33,139 nt of DNA from Rickettsia typhi (GTDB taxonomy: Bacteria; Pseudomonadota; Alphaproteobacteria; Rickettsiales; Deianiraeaceae). The position numbers and the translations under genes were made by a program. The DNA lies in NCBI GenBank assembly GCA_945889175.1, contig CAMDBF010000010.1, positions 1-33,139 on the forward strand. Reading direction: 5' to 3'. The number at the start of each line of letters is the position of its first letter. Position 1 is the stretch's first letter. Under the pieces are notes generated by a model. The model saw only the letters and a program-made list of their open reading frames with translations. It was not told the DNA's origin and ran no database searches. This document shows positions 2,904-28,754 of this stretch, piece by piece.

Positions 2904-5900
2904 GTGCTTACTTGTTTTTGGCATAAAGTTTGCAAATTTACATTAAGTATTTCCCTAATTTTATTATGTATAAATGCTCAGGGTGCATCAACACCGCAAA
3001 TTGGTGAAATTCTTGTTGTCAACGGACAAGATTCTACGACTCCAGAAAGCTCTTATTACAAAGGTTTTGTGTGCGGTGCTACACCTGCAAATTCAAATCC
3101 AGACGAACAGAATGGTAAAGACAGAACTTATACTATTGCTATGGCATCGGATATTAGCAATACTCCTGCATCAGTAACTCCAAAATGTACCCCTGTTATC
3201 TCTAGCTATAATTGTAATGGCTCTATTGATCCTAAGCCAGTTACTTATACTTGTATTACACAATGGCAAAATTGCTTCGATCCCACTAAGCCATCAAATT
3301 ACAACAAAACTCCATCAACTGAAAGTGCTGTTTATGTTAATAATAACGATATTAAGGGTGAATGTGTCTACAAACCAGTGTCAATGCTTATAAAGAATTC
3401 CAGTAATACAGGGACAACGACAGTTACCGAAAGTAATTATGTTTGCTTAGCTACAACACCTAAGGTCAGTATTGGTCCAATAAATTGTACTACAGTAGCT
3501 GATTGCAACACTAAAACAAATGGCTGGAGTTCTAAAATCTGCACCCCTATTGAAAGTGGTTACTACAATTGTACAATCTGCATTAACGGTACTTGTAGAA
3601 ACAATACTGGCTGCTTTTACAATTATAGCAATCGTTTGGTATGCTCAAGCGACACAAGCGGATGCACATATGATAAAGTAACCGGTCAGCCAAGTGGTTC
3701 TGGCTGTTATTATCTTGGCGGAGGATTGCAATTTATTAGTGGATTTCCAAATTATCAAACAATATATTCAACACTTAGTTTTAATACATCTTGTAAAAAA
3801 GCACTAAGTGCAACTAATGGTTACGGAAAGGTAAAAACTGTAGCTTCAACACCTATTGGTATAATATCTAACAACGATACTTTTGGAGCAAAGTTAGTGA
3901 ACGATAGAGTAAATATGAAATGTATAGTCAATCAAAGAGAAATAGCTGGCAGTTATATTAATTCTCCTGGCAATCTTCTTTTTTCAACAACAAATATACT
4001 TTTTACACCAGTTAGTAACTCGTACCTTAAGAGTCAGCAAAATGAAAGTGGCAAAGATTTATTTAGATGTATTTATGGAGATGGATGCTTTATTTGGGGT
4101 GGAGATGATAATGATTTTTTGGCAAATACTAAGTATGATAATAAGTTATTGTTTTTGAAAAACCTTAGTAACTTTCCTACAAATGATATATACGATTATA
4201 TTGAGTGTAAGGATGGATATTTTCCTCAATCAAATCCAGATGGAACAAGAATTAAGATTTCCTGCACAGCTAAGTTAGCAACCATAAAATCTCCATCTTA
4301 CTTTGTTAAAGACGCTCAGCCCTTTGCTGAAACTTGTCAAAAAGGTTGTAAGCAAACAAATGCAAACAAAGAACTGCAAAATACGGAGTATGAAAATAAA
4401 GAATACATAGGAGTCTTAGATCAAGGTAGTAGAACGATCAATTGCAAGGATAGTTATGAAGTTGATGCAAATTACGATAAGCCAAGTCTACCAAGTAACT
4501 TTAACTGCACAATTAGCAAAAATGGTGACTTTTCTTCTTTAAGTGACGATATGAATCTAGGATCACTTCGAATAGATAGTGCAACTCGAAAATCATGTCA
4601 TTTTGGATATATAGAAACAAAATCAGTGGAGATAACTTCTGATGGATGGTTAAAAACATGTGAATCAAGAGTTAGGGATGTCAACTGGGACGACCCTTTT
4701 CTTAATATTGGAAGCGTTGATATTTTTGATAGAGTGATGATTGACTCAATTAGCAACGAAGTCATGAAAATGCCAACATGTGGTTTTTGGGATTATTTTG
4801 ATCCTATAAAGATTGGGGATTGTACTCAAAGAGATCTTTGTGGAACATGGACTGGTTGTTCTTTTATTGGCATAAGTGAAATTTCGCGTTACTACATAGG
4901 TGACGATAAGATAAAGTACTTGACATCACTTGCACCATCCCATGTAACAAAAACATGCACCTCAACAAAGGCTAATAGAAAGAAAATAGATGTAACGACA
5001 TACACTAAAAAATATTGTAAAGACAGTTATGATGAGAAGAAGTCTGGTTGGTTTAGTAGTTCCTCTGGTAATTCGCCTTTTTGCAATTCTTTGATGTCTA
5101 ATGGAATGACTCTTGTTAAATATAAAGCAAACCTTCAACAAAATATTGACTCTTTAAACGATTTCAAAAAAAATTGCTACTGGACTGATTCAACTTTATT
5201 AACGGGTCAAGATGGAAGCCTTATGACGCAACCAACTTCATTAGCTAATTTTAATCAAGTAATTGGTTCTTTTGTGCAAGGCACAAAATCTGGATCTGTT
5301 CAATATTACCCATCGCCTTGGACAACTCTTACAAAATACTACTCCTACTTGGGTAAAATAGATAGTTTTAATGTAGGTTTTATTACAGATTATAATCGTA
5401 CTTTACAAAAATATTGCTCCTCTATTCCAAAAGATAGAGCTGTGGGAGATTACAGGGAATCTGATAGTAACACTAAGTTTGACGGAATTACTTTAAAAAC
5501 TCTTTTAGATAGATATTGGCAAGTGCAATCTGACATGCAGATTCCAATCGATATATTAACTCAGGCACTTCAAGATAGCGATAGTAGATGGGGTGAATGT
5601 TTGGAGTATAAAGCTAATGGTAACTCATTTGTTTGTAATACAGATAACTCAACAGTATCAAGTATTCAATCTACTGGTGGTAGCACAGCTGAGACAAAAT
5701 TTGCAATAACCTGTAATAATGGATCTATAACGGGACTGCAAAAGTGTATTCCTTCCTATTGCAATTTATCAACACAGTCTAACTATTTAACAACAAAAAT
5801 AATGAACGGAGATCAGGATGTTGCAATTAATTGCATAGATGGTTATTCAATATTGCCAAGCAGGCAAACTGGCTTTTTAGCAAGCTGTATAAATGGTGAA

Positions 5901-8837
5901 TTAAGTTACAAATCTAAAAATGGCGATCCTATTAGTAAAGAGGCAATTAAGAGCTATGTATGTGTAAGACCGTGTTACACTGATGTATTTAAAAATGTTG
6001 ATTCTTCGACGGTTAAAATTTACTACAATAATCAACCTTTACTTGATTCAGCTGGAGCAGTTAGTGTTGATTATTTATTTGAAAAGCAAAAAGTTGTCGT
6101 TAAGTGCGTTGACAATAAGAATGTAGAATTTGATTCATATGAGTCATTCTGCACTAATAATGGAACCTTTGATGATTACAGAGGCTGTGGAAAAACTACA
6201 ATTCAATGTAAAGGAGCGGATGGGGTTATTGGAAGTAGTAACGATTTTTTTGCAGCTACGAGTGATAGTCAAACTCTTGCAAATAACCAAGCTTACACAA
6301 TACAATGCTCTGATGGTTATTACAACAATACCATTAACAGCACTATAAGTAATTTTACCGTTAGATGCGTTGATGGAAAGTTGTTTAAAGATGTAGGCGG
6401 AAAGCTTGTAGATAGTCTACCTAAGTGTATAAAAAAATGTAAAGCAAGCTCTTTATCAAGCTTTGGCGAAATTGATGCAACACTTGATGGTAAGCCTTTA
6501 AAATTAGCAATGGATTCACCTAGTATAGTCGATCCTTTTTCAAAAGTAAAAGTTACATGTCAAGAATTTAGCGGTAACGAATATGGCTTTGTTGATAGTG
6601 ATGGCACCTATACTAAAACATTGTCTTCAACATGTAAGGTTAATGGAACATTTGGTGTTTTGGATTTTTCAGGTATGCCGATATGTAAAAAAGTTGGATG
6701 TCCTATTAGTGAAATTACTTTTGTTGATACAGTTAGCTATCCTTTGTCTGTGGATTACATTACGAGTTATACCACAAACTTTCACCAGTTAGAGTGTCCA
6801 TCTGGATATGAAAGATTTATGACACCTTCGAAAATTCCTTTGTGTAAAAATGGCAAATGGATAGGTGATAAAATATTAGGATGTAGACCAAAGGAAGATC
6901 CTGAGGATAAAAAGCCTCAAACTGCTGCTAATTTTAATAAAAGTTTAACTTTAAAAATTAATGTTAATGCGGTTGCAAATGCAGTGTTAAATGGTGGAAC
7001 ACGAGTTATTGACAGCAATGGTGCTCCAACAGGTTTTGTTAAACTAAAAGAAAATGAAAGTATTATTGCAACATGTAATCAAGATTATTACTTTGCAACG
7101 CCAGATGGTCAGAAATCTCAAACAAGAACATTTACTGCCTTAAGTGGTAAAATTGGTTTTACATCATTTGACAAGTGTCGTAGATTTTTATCAGTTGATA
7201 GACTGGCTGTTAGTGCTAATATTAATGTATATACAAAACCATCGAGTACATCGCAGATGGTTCTTGTGCCAAAAGGTACAACCGTGCCTGCTGGTACTCA
7301 GCTTACTGTAAAATGCGAGTCTGTTGATGGTAGTGATATGGGCTTTTTACAATCAAGCTCGACTCAGTATGATGTGACAGCTCTTGAAAATGGTATGTTT
7401 GACAAAGAATATGGTGATTGTATAAAAAGTTATAAACAATGTAGCAATGCTAGTCTTACTACTTTTATAGATTCTACATCGATAAATATGACAGACTTTA
7501 ATACAAGGATAGCGAAAGTTCCTTATACCCCAAATGGAGAAAGCTTTCCACTAAAGGCAAATAACGGATATAACAGTCCACTTCAACCAAAATGTCAAAA
7601 TGGTAATTGGGATAGGGTAAGTCAGGCTCAGTTGACAAAGACACCAAAGCCTTACAGGGCTTTTAAAAATTGCACATCGGATGCCTTTAGCGGTAACTAT
7701 CAAACCGCAAATAAATTATTTAACAAATATACTAAGCCTTACGAAGGTACTAAAATAACTTTTATGGAGGGTGAAAGTATCTATCTTGCTTGCAATACTT
7801 CAAATACTGATTTAATTGAGCATGCAAATGATCATTTTGATTCCTGTCCAAATACAAAAATTCTTGGTAAATGTGCCGCGTCAACTTGTCACAATGGTGT
7901 TTGGTCAAACAAAATAGCGTGTCAAAAATGGATTAAAATTGCACTTGGTGTTTTAGATAGTAACAATCAACCTACAAATAATATTCGCAATCCAACACAA
8001 TACTTTATTAGCAATCCTATTATTATCCCAAAAAACTCATTAGCCATTGCATCTGCAATGCAAAACTCGGACAGCAACGAGTTTGATACATATGATGATA
8101 CGATAGGTTACGGTACTCAAAGAATGTATGTAAATAACAATGTTCAATCGGATACATTCTTAAATTCTCAGCCAACATATAATCCGCCAGCATCTTTAGC
8201 AACATCTATAACAAACTGGAGTACTCGTGCAGGAGGTGTGAGTCACTGCTCTAGTCCACCTCCTGTACAAGGGTATTATTTAATGCTGAATTTTGGCAAA
8301 TCTAATGAGATTATTGAAAATTTAAAAACAGATTATCCAAATAAAATCAAGGATGGAGATGGAGAGAGTATTTATTTCTCAAGTTTACTACTTGAAAATG
8401 ACCAAATAAAATTAAGATGTAACGATTCAAATGCTTATTTAGCTTTAAGGGCATCTAGGTTTTCAGGTACTACAGTTGGTTTTGCCAGATATTCGGCAGC
8501 TGGTTATTATTGTGCTCTTGGAGGTTGTTTTGATTATGATGCTAGAGAGTTTAGAACTATCTTGGATAGTGTTTCAATGACTCCCGATAGGCAAAATGAA
8601 ACATTTCAATTAACACCAAACAAATCAAGTTATTATACCGATGGTCATGTTTATGAGAGTAAGGTTGCTCATTTACTTTATGTTCATTGTCTTGATAGCA
8701 GATCTTGGACAGATAGAACATTTTCTAATTTTGTAGGCTATTATAGATGCGATGATGTTAAGGAGAATAATGCTTCTTCTTGGGGTGTTGGATATACTGG
8801 GAGTTACACTACTGGTTATATATCAGAGTGGTGGTAA
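2904..8837 (+). CDS. Giant exported cysteine-rich protein with repeated sushi/CCP-like modules (1977 aa)
   Basis: No specific family is recognised. The start is GTG. An in-frame stop at 2895-2897 excludes any longer start. Residues 1-28 look like a Sec signal peptide: positive N-region, hydrophobic LSISLILLCINA, and AQGA before the mature STPQ. The mature part carries about 80 cysteines. From about residue 430 to 1680 it repeats a pattern like sushi/CCP modules: a C-x-D-G-Y or C-P-S-G-Y motif (about 435, 979, 1135, 1299), a later cysteine followed by N-G-x-W or N-G-x-F, and a closing cysteine. The first about 260 residues are Cys- and Asn-rich with short loops. There is no C-terminal membrane segment, autotransporter barrel or sorting motif; the protein ends SEWW. 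It probably acts in the periplasm or on the surface, with many disulfides, in adhesion or interaction with other cells (inferred). Confidence 0.8.
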   Translation: MLTCFWHKVCKFTLSISLILLCINAQGASTPQIGEILVVNGQDSTTPESSYYKGFVCGATPANSNPDEQNGKDRTYTIAMASDISNTPASVTPKCTPVISSYNCNGSIDPKPVTYTCITQWQNCFDPTKPSNYNKTPSTESAVYVNNNDIKGECVYKPVSMLIKNSSNTGTTTVTESNYVCLATTPKVSIGPINCTTVADCNTKTNGWSSKICTPIESGYYNCTICINGTCRNNTGCFYNYSNRLVCSSDTSGCTYDKVTGQPSGSGCYYLGGGLQFISGFPNYQTIYSTLSFNTSCKKALSATNGYGKVKTVASTPIGIISNNDTFGAKLVNDRVNMKCIVNQREIAGSYINSPGNLLFSTTNILFTPVSNSYLKSQQNESGKDLFRCIYGDGCFIWGGDDNDFLANTKYDNKLLFLKNLSNFPTNDIYDYIECKDGYFPQSNPDGTRIKISCTAKLATIKSPSYFVKDAQPFAETCQKGCKQTNANKELQNTEYENKEYIGVLDQGSRTINCKDSYEVDANYDKPSLPSNFNCTISKNGDFSSLSDDMNLGSLRIDSATRKSCHFGYIETKSVEITSDGWLKTCESRVRDVNWDDPFLNIGSVDIFDRVMIDSISNEVMKMPTCGFWDYFDPIKIGDCTQRDLCGTWTGCSFIGISEISRYYIGDDKIKYLTSLAPSHVTKTCTSTKANRKKIDVTTYTKKYCKDSYDEKKSGWFSSSSGNSPFCNSLMSNGMTLVKYKANLQQNIDSLNDFKKNCYWTDSTLLTGQDGSLMTQPTSLANFNQVIGSFVQGTKSGSVQYYPSPWTTLTKYYSYLGKIDSFNVGFITDYNRTLQKYCSSIPKDRAVGDYRESDSNTKFDGITLKTLLDRYWQVQSDMQIPIDILTQALQDSDSRWGECLEYKANGNSFVCNTDNSTVSSIQSTGGSTAETKFAITCNNGSITGLQKCIPSYCNLSTQSNYLTTKIMNGDQDVAINCIDGYSILPSRQTGFLASCINGELSYKSKNGDPISKEAIKSYVCVRPCYTDVFKNVDSSTVKIYYNNQPLLDSAGAVSVDYLFEKQKVVVKCVDNKNVEFDSYESFCTNNGTFDDYRGCGKTTIQCKGADGVIGSSNDFFAATSDSQTLANNQAYTIQCSDGYYNNTINSTISNFTVRCVDGKLFKDVGGKLVDSLPKCIKKCKASSLSSFGEIDATLDGKPLKLAMDSPSIVDPFSKVKVTCQEFSGNEYGFVDSDGTYTKTLSSTCKVNGTFGVLDFSGMPICKKVGCPISEITFVDTVSYPLSVDYITSYTTNFHQLECPSGYERFMTPSKIPLCKNGKWIGDKILGCRPKEDPEDKKPQTAANFNKSLTLKINVNAVANAVLNGGTRVIDSNGAPTGFVKLKENESIIATCNQDYYFATPDGQKSQTRTFTALSGKIGFTSFDKCRRFLSVDRLAVSANINVYTKPSSTSQMVLVPKGTTVPAGTQLTVKCESVDGSDMGFLQSSSTQYDVTALENGMFDKEYGDCIKSYKQCSNASLTTFIDSTSINMTDFNTRIAKVPYTPNGESFPLKANNGYNSPLQPKCQNGNWDRVSQAQLTKTPKPYRAFKNCTSDAFSGNYQTANKLFNKYTKPYEGTKITFMEGESIYLACNTSNTDLIEHANDHFDSCPNTKILGKCAASTCHNGVWSNKIACQKWIKIALGVLDSNNQPTNNIRNPTQYFISNPIIIPKNSLAIASAMQNSDSNEFDTYDDTIGYGTQRMYVNNNVQSDTFLNSQPTYNPPASLATSITNWSTRAGGVSHCSSPPPVQGYYLMLNFGKSNEIIENLKTDYPNKIKDGDGESIYFSSLLLENDQIKLRCNDSNAYLALRASRFSGTTVGFARYSAAGYYCALGGCFDYDAREFRTILDSVSMTPDRQNETFQLTPNKSSYYTDGHVYESKVAHLLYVHCLDSRSWTDRTFSNFVGYYRCDDVKENNASSWGVGYTGSYTTGYISEWW

Positions 8838-8928
8838 AAAATATTTACTGTATTATTATGATTGATTTATTTTACTAGTTCTGTCTTTTGTTAAGTACAA
8901 ATTAATTTGTTAATTTATTTAAAACTCT

Positions 8929-9378
8929 ATGGATTTATTTTTAGTTGCCATTATTGGTTTGATTGTTGTAACATCATTTTTTGTTTTCAAAAGAATGGTA
9001 AAAGTAATTGTTAAAAATCTTGACGATGTTAAAGAAGGTGATACAAATGTTAGCAAAAGCTACAACAAGCCAGAGGACGCAATTGCAAGTATTGATAACA
9101 AATATAATGTAAAAAAAGGCACAGATGGTTTGCCTAAAAAACGCAGAGGGACGGATATAGAAGTAGCTGGTTTTGAAGAGGTTTATAAAGAGGTTGCTGA
9201 AAAAAAAATTACAGCTTTAAAAAAGCATGATATTGATGCCTTAAGAGATTCAAGCCATTTTGCAGACATAGTTGACGATCTAAACGAGAATATGAGAAGG
9301 GGAACGAATAATGCTCTTGATGGTCATTATATTGAAAAAAAGTTAAAATCCGAAGGAAAGGATTTTGGCAGATTTTAG
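8929..9378 (+). CDS. Small protein with N-terminal membrane anchor, weakly Tim44-like
   Basis: This 149-residue protein starts with a hydrophobic segment, FLVAIIGLIVVTSFFVF (about residues 4-20), followed by basic residues, so the rest should face the cytoplasm. The remainder is charged and helical. A segment around residues 80-125 (VAGFEEVYKEVAEKKITALK, then HDIDAL and DIVDDLNENM) faintly resembles the start of the Tim44-like domain of alphaproteobacterial proteins, where a helix is followed by G/H-D-x-x-x-L and an F-x-x-x-I helix. The rest of that domain is missing. It lies 91 bases after the giant secreted protein and before the DsbA-like gene, on the same strand. The gene is credible from its clean frame and context. 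Function is unknown and the Tim44 resemblance is tentative. Confidence 0.65.
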   Translation: MDLFLVAIIGLIVVTSFFVFKRMVKVIVKNLDDVKEGDTNVSKSYNKPEDAIASIDNKYNVKKGTDGLPKKRRGTDIEVAGFEEVYKEVAEKKITALKKHDIDALRDSSHFADIVDDLNENMRRGTNNALDGHYIEKKLKSEGKDFGRF

Positions 9379-9539
9379 TACTTAGTGTGTTTTTTAAGAA
9401 AAATCATAATAAGTATTGACTATATTTAAAATGCAAATAGAAATTATTATACATCCTTAGTAGAATGCTATTTTTTTGGGAGCTAATTCGCAGGATATAA
9501 AGTCTTTTTTTGTTATATTATTTGTTTTCTTGTTTTTGT

Positions 9540-10226
9540 ATGAATTACATTGCAATAGTCGCTCTTGTGCTGTCAATCGGCTCATATGGGTTTTCCTTCT
9601 TTACAACAAAGTTTTTTACCAGTCCTGATAGAGTCTACGAATCAATCGTAAAAAACATGGAACATAAGCAAAAAAAACAAATGGAAGATGTAAAAGAAAA
9701 AGCAAGTAAATATGTTGAAAAAAACTACGATGAAATCATAGCTAACTCCCCAGTCTACGGTAATGCAAGTGCTACAAACATAATCGTTCAATTTTCTGAT
9801 TATAACTGTGGATACTGTAAAGCTGCACATCAGTTTCTTTCTGGTGTTGTTAAAAGCAGATCTGATATCAAAATTGTTATAAAAGAACTTCCTATTTTAG
9901 GTCAGGATTCAAAAGATGCTGCAAAAATAGCTTTATTTATCAATTCTAAAGACCCTAGCAAGTATCAAGCTTTTCACTCTAAAATGCTATCTTCTAAAAC
10001 TAAAGAGAGTGCTGTAAAAGTAGCTGTTTCCCTTGGCTTTAAGGAGTCTGATGTTAAGGCTGCAATTAAGTCTGATGTTTTTGAAGAGGAAATCAAAAAC
10101 ACATACAAACTTGCTCAAGAGCTTGGCATAGGCGGAACCCCTTCATTTATTATAGGTAAGGAGTTTGTTCCTTCTTTTATGCCTGAGGATAAGTTTCAGG
10201 AACTTATTAATAAAAACTTTAAATAG
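9540..10226 (+). CDS. DsbA-family thiol:disulfide oxidoreductase
   Basis: A periplasmic thioredoxin-fold protein that would introduce or rearrange disulfides in exported proteins. It starts with a hydrophobic signal or anchor (MNYIAIVALVLSIGSYGF), then a charged helical linker, then the thioredoxin fold. The active site is C-G-Y-C (residues 90-93 from this start) within FSDYNCGYCKAAHQFL. A cis-proline loop is seen at GIGGTPSFIIG (Pro about 201). The sequence resembles the DsbA/Com1-like proteins common in Rickettsiales. A TTG at 9510 would add ten residues. The ATG at 9540 places the hydrophobic segment at the N terminus and is preferred, though neither has a convincing ribosome binding site. 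The gene ends two bases before the aroQ ATG. The 80-cysteine protein just upstream is an obvious potential substrate (inferred). Confidence 0.9.
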   Translation: MNYIAIVALVLSIGSYGFSFFTTKFFTSPDRVYESIVKNMEHKQKKQMEDVKEKASKYVEKNYDEIIANSPVYGNASATNIIVQFSDYNCGYCKAAHQFLSGVVKSRSDIKIVIKELPILGQDSKDAAKIALFINSKDPSKYQAFHSKMLSSKTKESAVKVAVSLGFKESDVKAAIKSDVFEEEIKNTYKLAQELGIGGTPSFIIGKEFVPSFMPEDKFQELINKNFK

Positions 10227-10228
10227 TT

Positions 10229-10684
10229 ATGTTAAAAAAATTACCATTAATAGCAATCGTTAATGGTCCAAATCTTAACTTACTTGGACTTAGAGAGCCA
10301 CAAACTTATGGCTCTCTAACCTTGCAACAAATCAACTCCGACCTTACCTCTGTTTTTAACACAAAAGCTAGTTTAAGCTTTTTTCAATCGAATCACGAGG
10401 GTGAAATTATTGACTTTATACAATCCTTTAAAGGTGATGGCTTAGTGTTAAACCTAGGTGCCTTTACTCACACATCAATAGCAATAAGGGATGCTCTTGT
10501 GCATTGCTTAAACATTAGTAAATGTAAGGCCGTCGAGGTTCATATTTCTAATATTTACAAAAGAGAAAAGTTTAGAAAAACATCTTACATATCAGATGTT
10601 GTTGATGGTGTCATCTGCGGACTTGGTTCAAATGGTTACAATGCTGGGGTAATGTATTTATTGTCAGTTCTAAATACTATTTAG
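10229..10684 (+). CDS. aroQ: 3-dehydroquinate dehydratase, type II
   Basis: Catalyses the dehydration of 3-dehydroquinate to 3-dehydroshikimate, step three of the shikimate pathway, as a cytosolic dodecamer. The type II hallmarks are complete: NGPNLNLLGLREPQTYG (12-28, catalytic Tyr27), QSNHEGEIIDF (53-63), LNLGAFTHTSIAIRDAL (74-90, catalytic His81), EVHISN (103-108) and the Arg112-containing lid YKREKFR. Length of 151 residues is typical. The ATG is two bases after the DsbA-like stop, so the two are probably co-transcribed. The gene is notable because most obligate intracellular Rickettsiales lack shikimate enzymes. It implies aromatic or folate precursor synthesis in this organism. Confidence 0.96.
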   Translation: MLKKLPLIAIVNGPNLNLLGLREPQTYGSLTLQQINSDLTSVFNTKASLSFFQSNHEGEIIDFIQSFKGDGLVLNLGAFTHTSIAIRDALVHCLNISKCKAVEVHISNIYKREKFRKTSYISDVVDGVICGLGSNGYNAGVMYLLSVLNTI

Positions 10685-24837: not shown

Positions 24838-25434
24838 ATGACTTACACTTTATTAAAAAATTATTCAGGCATTTTTGCAATAATTATTACAATTGTTGCC
24901 TTTGTGCCTTATATTAAGTCAATTTTACAAAACAAAATTAAGCCCCATGTTTTTACTTGGGTTATTTGGTCTTCAGCAACTTTAACAGTATTTTTTGCAG
25001 AACTTTTTAGTGGCGGCGGCATGGGGTGTTGGGCAATAGGCCTGTCGGGCTGTATTAGCGTAGTTATAGCCTTGTTGTCTTTGATTAAGAAATGCGACAA
25101 GCATATTACGAAATCCGATTGGATATGTTTTATTTCCGGCATTCTTGCAATTCCCATATGGATAGTTACAAAAGATCCTCTTTGGTCAGTATTGCTTTTA
25201 ACTGCTATAGATGTTACGGGCTACATTCCAACAATTAAAAAAGTAAGCAAGGATCCCTACAGCGATAGCGTTGCAATGTTCACATTAACATCCTTAAGAA
25301 ATGTCTTTTCTATTATCGCTTTGGACGAGAAAATTTTAACAAATATAATCTTTCAAGCCGCCACCATCACGGGTAACATGCTAATTGTTTGTATAATTGT
25401 CTACAAAAAATATTTAAAGAATAGTCAAAAATAG
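24838..25434 (+). CDS. Multi-pass membrane protein with PQ-loop/SemiSWEET-like repeats
   Basis: About six or seven hydrophobic segments are seen in 198 residues. Two related motifs stand out: FVPYIKSILQNKIKPHVFTW (about 22-41) and TGYIPTIKKVSKDPYSDSVA (about 127-146). Both have a proline-tyrosine/isoleucine helix start, a basic loop, and then a Pro or Ser/Trp-containing segment, as in PQ-loop/SWEET-type transporters. The substrate is not known. Tyrosine, tryptophan and charged residues in the middle are conserved-looking. It begins 20 bases after lpdA and is probably co-transcribed. A hairpin overlaps its stop codon. Confidence 0.6.
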   Translation: MTYTLLKNYSGIFAIIITIVAFVPYIKSILQNKIKPHVFTWVIWSSATLTVFFAELFSGGGMGCWAIGLSGCISVVIALLSLIKKCDKHITKSDWICFISGILAIPIWIVTKDPLWSVLLLTAIDVTGYIPTIKKVSKDPYSDSVAMFTLTSLRNVFSIIALDEKILTNIIFQAATITGNMLIVCIIVYKKYLKNSQK

Positions 25435-27758: not shown

Positions 27759-28754
27759 TTACTTAAGATTAGTTTTGCATCTATTTTTAAACCATTCTTG
27801 TAATTCAGCGAGGACTTTAAACTTTGGAATTGAGTTTAGCTCTATTGGATTTTGTTGCATTCGAGTCTCAAATAACGCTCTCGTTGTGTTTCGTGGATAA
27901 TGATAAATCAAACTATCTTCAATCTGTCTGGGGTAGAAATAACAATCCTCGGAAAGCGTATAAGTTACATTTCGCATACTCTGGGGAAGTGTCCAAAACT
28001 TTTTCCAAGATTTATCTAATTCTTTTTTTGGCTTTATGTCTATAACTTCTATTGCTGCAAATTCTCTATGATCTTTTCGATTGTGCAATTTTAAAAAAAC
28101 ATCCATCGCCTCACTGTCACTTTTAGGAGCGGAGTAGCCGTATATTGTGGTTATAAAAGATTTCTCTATTGCAAGATGAAGGCGATTCCAAGCATCTTTG
28201 ATATACTGATTTTCAGTGTAGTCTTTTTTGCCGATCGGATAAAGCAGTGGAATTTTTCTCATAGGTTTTTGACAATTGCTACACAAAAAACCAAGTTCGC
28301 CATTTATTCTACACTTATAACAATGTCCAGCTTTAACATTACCGTGCAAAAATAGTAATATTGGATTATCGTTTGGAAAAACTTGATGGTTTCTTTTTGC
28401 AGCTTGCCATAAAAAAGGATCCCAATTAAATGTTGCTATAACATCTTTCTTTGTTAAAGATAAGAATAAGTAATCATAAGCATTTGGTTTGTCTGTTAAT
28501 TCTAATTTAGAAAAATAATTAAATATCTTATCGTTAATTATTTCTATTAGTCTTGCATAACTATCATCATTGTATATTTTAGAATAAAATTCTTCAAAAT
28601 TTACAATCTCAGTAGGATTTATGTCGTAATGCCTAATGTCTTCTTGTAAGCCACAAGTTTCAATAAGATTATTCATTAATGGCATATTTTTATCTACAGA
28701 CTTTGATGCACCAGCTCCAAGGATAACTAAATGAGCTTTTTCGTATAATTTCAT
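27759..28754 (-). CDS. SIR2-family protein, candidate NAD-hydrolase defence effector
   Basis: The SIR2 fold is recognisable. VILGAGASKSVDKNMP (10-25) contains the NAD-binding G-A-G-A-S. IATFNWDPFLWQA (106-118) holds the N-W-D motif equivalent to the sirtuin Q-N-I-D. LFLHGNV (134-140) carries the catalytic-type His137. CYKC (145-148) and CSNC (158-161) form a zinc-ribbon pair. IYGYSAPKSDSEA (204-216) corresponds to the G-x-S/G-Y-S loop. The classic deacylase segment S-G-I-P-T-F-R is absent and FNWD replaces QNID. This combination is typical of SIR2-like domains in anti-phage proteins (Thoeris ThsA, DSR, SIR2-HerA, short-pAgo partners), which destroy NAD+. The C-terminal about 100 residues are unrecognised and could sense a trigger. 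It lies alone between two copies of the flavoprotein gene's 3' end. A noncanonical deacylase is possible. Confidence 0.75.
   Translation of the reverse strand: MKLYEKAHLVILGAGASKSVDKNMPLMNNLIETCGLQEDIRHYDINPTEIVNFEEFYSKIYNDDSYARLIEIINDKIFNYFSKLELTDKPNAYDYLFLSLTKKDVIATFNWDPFLWQAAKRNHQVFPNDNPILLFLHGNVKAGHCYKCRINGELGFLCSNCQKPMRKIPLLYPIGKKDYTENQYIKDAWNRLHLAIEKSFITTIYGYSAPKSDSEAMDVFLKLHNRKDHREFAAIEVIDIKPKKELDKSWKKFWTLPQSMRNVTYTLSEDCYFYPRQIEDSLIYHYPRNTTRALFETRMQQNPIELNSIPKFKVLAELQEWFKNRCKTNLK

Follow-up and report, generated by a model that had tools for sequence, protein, structure and literature searches.

The window, which is the whole stretch of 33,139 nucleotides analyzed here, encodes a giant exported protein of 1,977 amino acids (positions 2904 to 8837; GTG start), 83 of which (4.2%) are cysteines; features of the window lie on the plus strand unless noted. 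The gene has an intact paralog and an intact ortholog, and the open reading frame is real and intact. At its N terminus the protein carries a predicted Sec signal peptide (approximately residues 1 to 28; 2904 to 2987) with a basic start, a hydrophobic core, and the sequence AQGAS, and inspection by eye found a hydrophobic N-terminal signal sequence in all three homologs. An earlier reading of this DNA (the sequence-only reading) had described an open reading frame with about 80 cysteines and a signal peptide, followed by a 149-codon open reading frame and a DsbA-like gene, and this layout is confirmed. The 149-amino-acid protein (8929 to 9378) has a single transmembrane segment; it is followed by a DsbA-family enzyme (9540 to 10226) that matches DSBA/Thioredoxin_4 (PF01323, E = 8.7e-20) and by aroQ (class II dehydroquinase; 10229 to 10684), a conserved neighbor of the Dsb gene. 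Promoter and terminator scans were uninformative. Elsewhere in the window, open reading frames of 331 amino acids (27759 to 28754, minus strand) and 198 amino acids (24838 to 25434, plus strand) have no Pfam match at E ≤ 1e-5.

Searched as a whole, the giant protein has no match in Pfam or NCBIfam (E ≤ 1) or, by phmmer, in the PDB. A whole-protein profile run against the PDB returned only lipase A and a ROS kinase, both at E values of at least 0.58, and these were rejected. The same Pfam, NCBIfam, and PDB searches revealed no recognizable binding or catalytic domain, and the protein has neither an outer membrane anchor nor a known adhesin domain.

Distribution and divergence of the giant gene

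The genome that holds the window (G000) comprises 1.16 Mb in 54 contigs and is 86% complete. Its gene content includes aroQ, panC, and hisB; because of these genes and an MshL-like secretin, neither this genome nor a close relative, the MAG L036 (deposited as "Rickettsia typhi isolate ME-21oct19-56"), is likely to be R. typhi. Type IV pili, the small genome size, and genes for amino acid synthesis made Deianiraeaceae, or a neighbor within that clade, a possible but unproven assignment for the family. Two homologs of the giant protein were found, a paralog in the same genome (contig C27; 1,617 amino acids, 49% identical to the window protein) and an ortholog in a sister genome, G001 (contig C10; 1,955 amino acids, 32% identical). 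No homolog was detected in any other genome of the order (263 searched in all), and viral contigs yielded no relative. A scan of a collection of 85,000 species, which was seeded by short conserved peptides and which distant relatives can escape, found the giant only in the sister genome. Among the genomes searched, then, it is confined to one genus.

Both the C27 paralog and the G001 ortholog are encoded divergently from lpxA and a polyprenyl synthetase gene. This shared slot beside lpxA is therefore the ancestral one, and the window copy is a displaced, diverged duplicate of the ancestral lpxA-adjacent gene. The giant gene also lies in the lpxA slot in MAG CAMCVL010000010.1 (L036), which is filed as Rickettsia typhi and matches the same-genus sister genome; this MAG is clearly not R. 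typhi.

Although the three giants are only 30 to 49% identical to one another, 48 cysteine columns are invariant among them, and the best-conserved stretches span residues 390 to 590 and 1510 to 1680. Other parts come and go in the alignment of the homologs (A1): an N-terminal cysteine-rich region (approximately residues 95 to 268; 3186 to 3707) is present in the ortholog and missing from the paralog, and a segment at approximately residues 711 to 905 (5034 to 5618) is missing from the paralog and mostly from the ortholog. The C-terminal region (residues 1680 to 1977; 7941 to 8834) has few cysteines and no Pfam or PDB match. Between G000 and G001, LpxA is 77% and the Dsb enzyme 70% identical; the far lower identity of the giants indicates rapid evolution, which is common among surface proteins.

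This rate bears on one alternative, in which the giant would form a coat with a structural or protective role, or a scaffold in the periplasm, and its modules would be stiff spacers with no part in binding. Its predicted secretion and richness in disulfides would suit such a role, as would the lack of a recognizable binding or catalytic domain in the searches above, but a gene that is duplicated and diverges far faster than housekeeping genes is less expected of a scaffold, and we consider this explanation unlikely.

The Dsb enzyme and the 149-residue protein form no conserved unit with the giant

The Dsb gene more likely starts at the ATG at 9540 than at the TTG at 9510 from which it was revised, because the sister protein begins MNYIAI. 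Its product contains the motifs DYNCGYCKAAH and GGTPSF. A CXXC motif with G or P at Cys+1, together with a GTcP cis-proline motif, marks disulfide isomerases (PMC6450060), and the enzyme has both CGYC and GTP. Its best PDB relatives include ScsC-type proteins (4xvw) and 6eez, the structure of Wolbachia α-DsbA2 (PMC6450060). Given these motifs and relatives, "isomerase-like" describes it better than plain DsbA: the neighbor belongs to the DsbA family, as the sequence-only reading had it, and looks like an ScsC/α-DsbA2-type isomerase rather than a DsbA oxidase. A DsbB gene is present in both G000 and G001, and with the isomerase-like enzyme also encoded, the oxidative folding machinery that had been postulated for the giant is available. 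An isomerase would suit a protein with dozens of predicted disulfides, yet this enzyme appears to be a general housekeeping partner and not a dedicated one.

The close spacing of the giant, 149-residue, and Dsb genes on one strand had suggested that they form one dedicated surface system. Comparison with relatives speaks strongly against this proposal, which we regard as very improbable. In the sister genome the three genes lie on three different contigs: the Dsb gene is between pepP and aroQ on C1, the 149-residue homolog is beside purH on C6, and the giant is on C10. Neither lpxA-linked giant, paralog or ortholog, has a Dsb gene nearby, an arrangement that the sequence-only reading had itself named as refuting evidence. 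The Dsb gene instead pairs with aroQ and is widespread where the giant is absent, with homologs in 17 of 19 relatives searched, in nearly all of which no giant was found.

The giant protein contains CCP-like modules

Division of the giant protein at its cysteines gives approximately 10 modules of the form C1-x(23-43)-C2..G[YF]-x-C3.(x)NG.[W/F/L]-x-C4, with short linkers from C4 to the next C1. The first, module a (4086 to 4337), has cysteines at residues 395, 435, 454, and 478; it is followed by an irregular cysteine module, b (residues 482 to 586; 4347 to 4661), which has no confident assignment. Five four-cysteine modules follow farther along: c (5760 to 5963; cysteines 953, 977, 995, and 1020), d (5973 to 6188; 1024, 1068, 1083, and 1095), e (6207 to 6428; 1102, 1135, 1155, and 1175), f (6438 to 6686; 1179, 1219, 1244, and 1261), and g (6699 to 6884; 1266, 1298, 1314, and 1327), the last of which comes nearest to the sushi consensus (LECPSGYE...CKNGKWIGDKILGC). 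Module h (6936 to 7178; 1391 and 1425) and module i (7179 to 7421; 1471 and 1506) retain cysteines 2 and 4 only, and module j (7440 to 7670; 1513 and 1564) retains cysteines 1 and 3 only. Module k (7671 to 7922) has all four (1590, 1630, 1662, and 1673) and an additional pair (1648 and 1657). Module d of the sister protein (L009) is enlarged by an insertion that includes a short internal repeat (CDSNGKVNPLDSGIC / CDSNGNPKVANSGIC), which may be a sign that the modules are still changing.

Nonoverlapping modules of the giant match one another by profile (54 columns, E = 7.8e-7). The motif C..G[YF] occurs 5 times against 0.58 expected and the motif C.{1,2}[ND]G.[WFLIY] 10 times against 0.38 expected, each above all of 2,000 shuffles in which cysteine positions were held fixed; the motifs were relaxed after the sequence had been read, so these counts do not carry strict P values. 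To compare the modules with known folds, we searched the PDB with a profile (A4) of 17 module sequences picked for the four-cysteine pattern. All 29 of the 29 sequences matched at E ≤ 10 are CCP proteins, among them factor H, FHR, MASP-1, CD46, and CR1, with a best E value of 6.3e-7; single domains reach a weaker i-Evalue, 2.4e-4 at best, and the alignments cover mainly the half from cysteine 2 to cysteine 4. Two control profiles, one with residues shuffled and cysteines kept and one with columns shuffled, gave 1 and 2 unrelated PDB matches (best E values of 1.6 and 0.25) and no CCP protein. The Pfam Sushi model (PF00084) matched neither the whole giant nor single modules, and a search of the gene translated in six frames gave no match either. 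Matches to herpesvirus UL73 (E = 0.0044) and to a phage tail protein (E = 0.26), each for 1 of the 17 modules in the Pfam scan, were rejected as chance.

The cysteines lost from modules h, i, and j are informative in another way. Four cysteines can pair in three ways, of which 1-3/2-4 alone leaves no half-pair in these modules, and the chance that three random two-cysteine losses would all fit this pairing is approximately 0.04. The losses thus fit the CCP arrangement of predicted disulfides.

An AlphaFold model of residues 945 to 1345, built from alignments of two sequences only with the paralog left out, has a mean pLDDT of 47; modules c and e reach approximately 60 to 88 and are modeled, with moderate confidence, as all beta. 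The 11 top PDB matches of this model in Foldseek are complement proteins, including C1s, CR1, Crry, and MASPs, none of them significant (E = 0.08 to 0.66), and in a viral fold library no complement-type protein appeared in the top 50. The model of residues 1335 to 1977 (pLDDT of 27) was unusable. The 945-to-1345 model, with its low overall confidence, is consistent with a CCP fold, which the sequence-only reading had proposed to check by structure prediction, without proving it.

Together, the profile, the controls, and the pattern of cysteine loss give good support to modules that are CCP-like; because the Sushi model does not match, we do not call them members of the Pfam family. The original description of sushi/CCP-like modules stands in this form: A4 finds only CCP proteins and its shuffles lose them, while the Sushi model itself finds nothing in the giant.

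The modules could also be a four-cysteine beta repeat of independent origin, which came to resemble CCP modules by convergence and works as a CCP array without eukaryotic homology, a reading to which we give somewhat less than even odds. It draws on the missing Sushi match, on the restriction of the giant to one genus, and on the confinement of strong PDB alignment to the cysteine 2 to cysteine 4 half. Length points the same way: the modules measure 62 to 84 residues between cysteines 1 and 4 and are mostly longer than a usual CCP module of about 60 residues. Convergence accounts less readily for a profile that picks out CCP proteins from among all the cysteine-rich folds in the PDB and for a cysteine pairing logic that is apparently the same as in CCP modules.

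Pseudopilins with a sushi-like module

The proteins with the highest Sushi-model scores across G000 and G001, all below the cutoff, are not the giant but resemble pseudopilins: they begin with a methylation motif at the N terminus and carry at the C terminus a four-cysteine module ending in C-x-x-x-G-[ED]-W. Four type IV pseudopilin-like genes with such a C-terminal sushi-like module were recorded, at L054:4382-5713 (minus strand), L055:4224-6305 (plus strand; this one additionally matches a phage tail collar weakly), L056:5120-6925 (minus strand), and L071:1465-2784 (minus strand). Homologous pseudopilins occur across the whole family. In genome G006 (L086:3294-7053), one with a cysteine-rich tail containing CQNGNW has a prepilin peptidase and an MshL-like secretin as neighbors. 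Both G000 and G001 have secretin genes.

These proteins raise the idea that the giant forms the tip of an MshL-type type IV pilus in place of PilY1 or MshQ, with the module-bearing pseudopilins as anchors. The presence in the same genomes of pseudopilins with a four-cysteine, tryptophan-containing C-terminal module speaks for it, as does the gene neighborhood in G006. We nevertheless find it doubtful, since the giant is not genetically linked to pilus genes, has no match to the Neisseria_PilC domain of PilY1/PilC in Pfam or NCBIfam at E ≤ 1, and was found in one genus only while the pseudopilins are family-wide. The two sets of modules also match each other weakly by profile (8.6% probability), and their common origin may be taken as a lead. 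A broader version of this idea, in which a probably extracellular Rickettsiales lineage uses homologous CCP modules both to cap pseudopilins and to build the giant array of ten, as a bacterial CCP attachment system that either derives from the eukaryotic fold or gave rise to it, is likewise improbable in our estimate.

Extracellular Rickettsiales are believed to use type IV pili for attachment to their hosts (PMC10847448). The ATP/ADP translocase (PF03219) was found in 11 of 18 genomes of the family and in none of G000, G001, and the four g6 genomes. Since none was found in the giant's genus, nothing here points to dependence on a eukaryotic host; G000, G001, and the g6 genomes may be less host dependent, and the binding partner of the giant might just as well be prey or a surface.

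Discussion

The giant is a genuine and unusual protein, as are the CCP-like modules in it, and their linkage to the Dsb gene is incidental. We favor, with a probability of roughly 55%, a genus-restricted giant exoprotein with about 10 CCP-like modules that is exported by Sec, folded by Dsb enzymes, and displayed on the surface as a long modular adhesive. The protein would pass to the periplasm by Sec, where DsbB-linked oxidation and the ScsC/α-DsbA2-like isomerase would make and correct its disulfides. The modules would fold as tandem CCP/sushi-like beta units held by disulfides 1-3 and 2-4, with some units keeping only one of these. The likeliest onward route to the surface would be the MshL-type secretin together with the pseudopilins, and once there the long modular protein would adhere to other cells. 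Export by Sec, folding by Dsb enzymes, the export route, the surface location, and adhesion are all steps that we infer.

CCP modules are best known as recognition rods in animal complement and cell adhesion, and our literature searches found no description of a long tandem CCP array in a bacterium. If confirmed, the giant would represent a modular bacterial adhesive of a new kind, and it would allow transfer of the CCP fold from one kingdom to another to be tested against two separate origins. How host association began in the Rickettsiales is still unsettled (PMC9352585, PMC10847448).

Several known systems offer comparisons. The Dsb enzyme shares CGYC, the GTP cis-proline motif, and an extended N terminus with the trimeric isomerases ScsC and Wolbachia α-DsbA2; this putative isomerase is no specific partner of the giant. 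Large putative adhesins are also known from a related clade, the extracellular Rickettsiales, as FhaB-like proteins and other exoproteins (PMC10847448, PMC9352585), but the giant has no Pfam match to a haemagglutinin-type repeat or a two-partner secretion signal. Like PilY1- or MshQ-type proteins, the giant is large, exported, and cysteine containing, and the genomes that carry it also encode pseudopilins and an MshL-like secretin; it differs in having no PilY1 sequence match and no linkage to pilus genes. Compared with the CCP/sushi/SCR proteins (the factor H family, C4/C3b regulators, and MASPs; PF00084), the giant is bacterial, lacks a Pfam Sushi match, has modules that are mostly longer and in some cases carry a single cysteine pair, and is flanked by unique N- and C-terminal regions. 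What it shares with them is a tandem array of four-cysteine, predicted beta modules on short linkers, the C2..G-Y and C3..N-G-x-aromatic motifs, and a pattern of cysteine loss that fits the 1-3/2-4 pairing logic.
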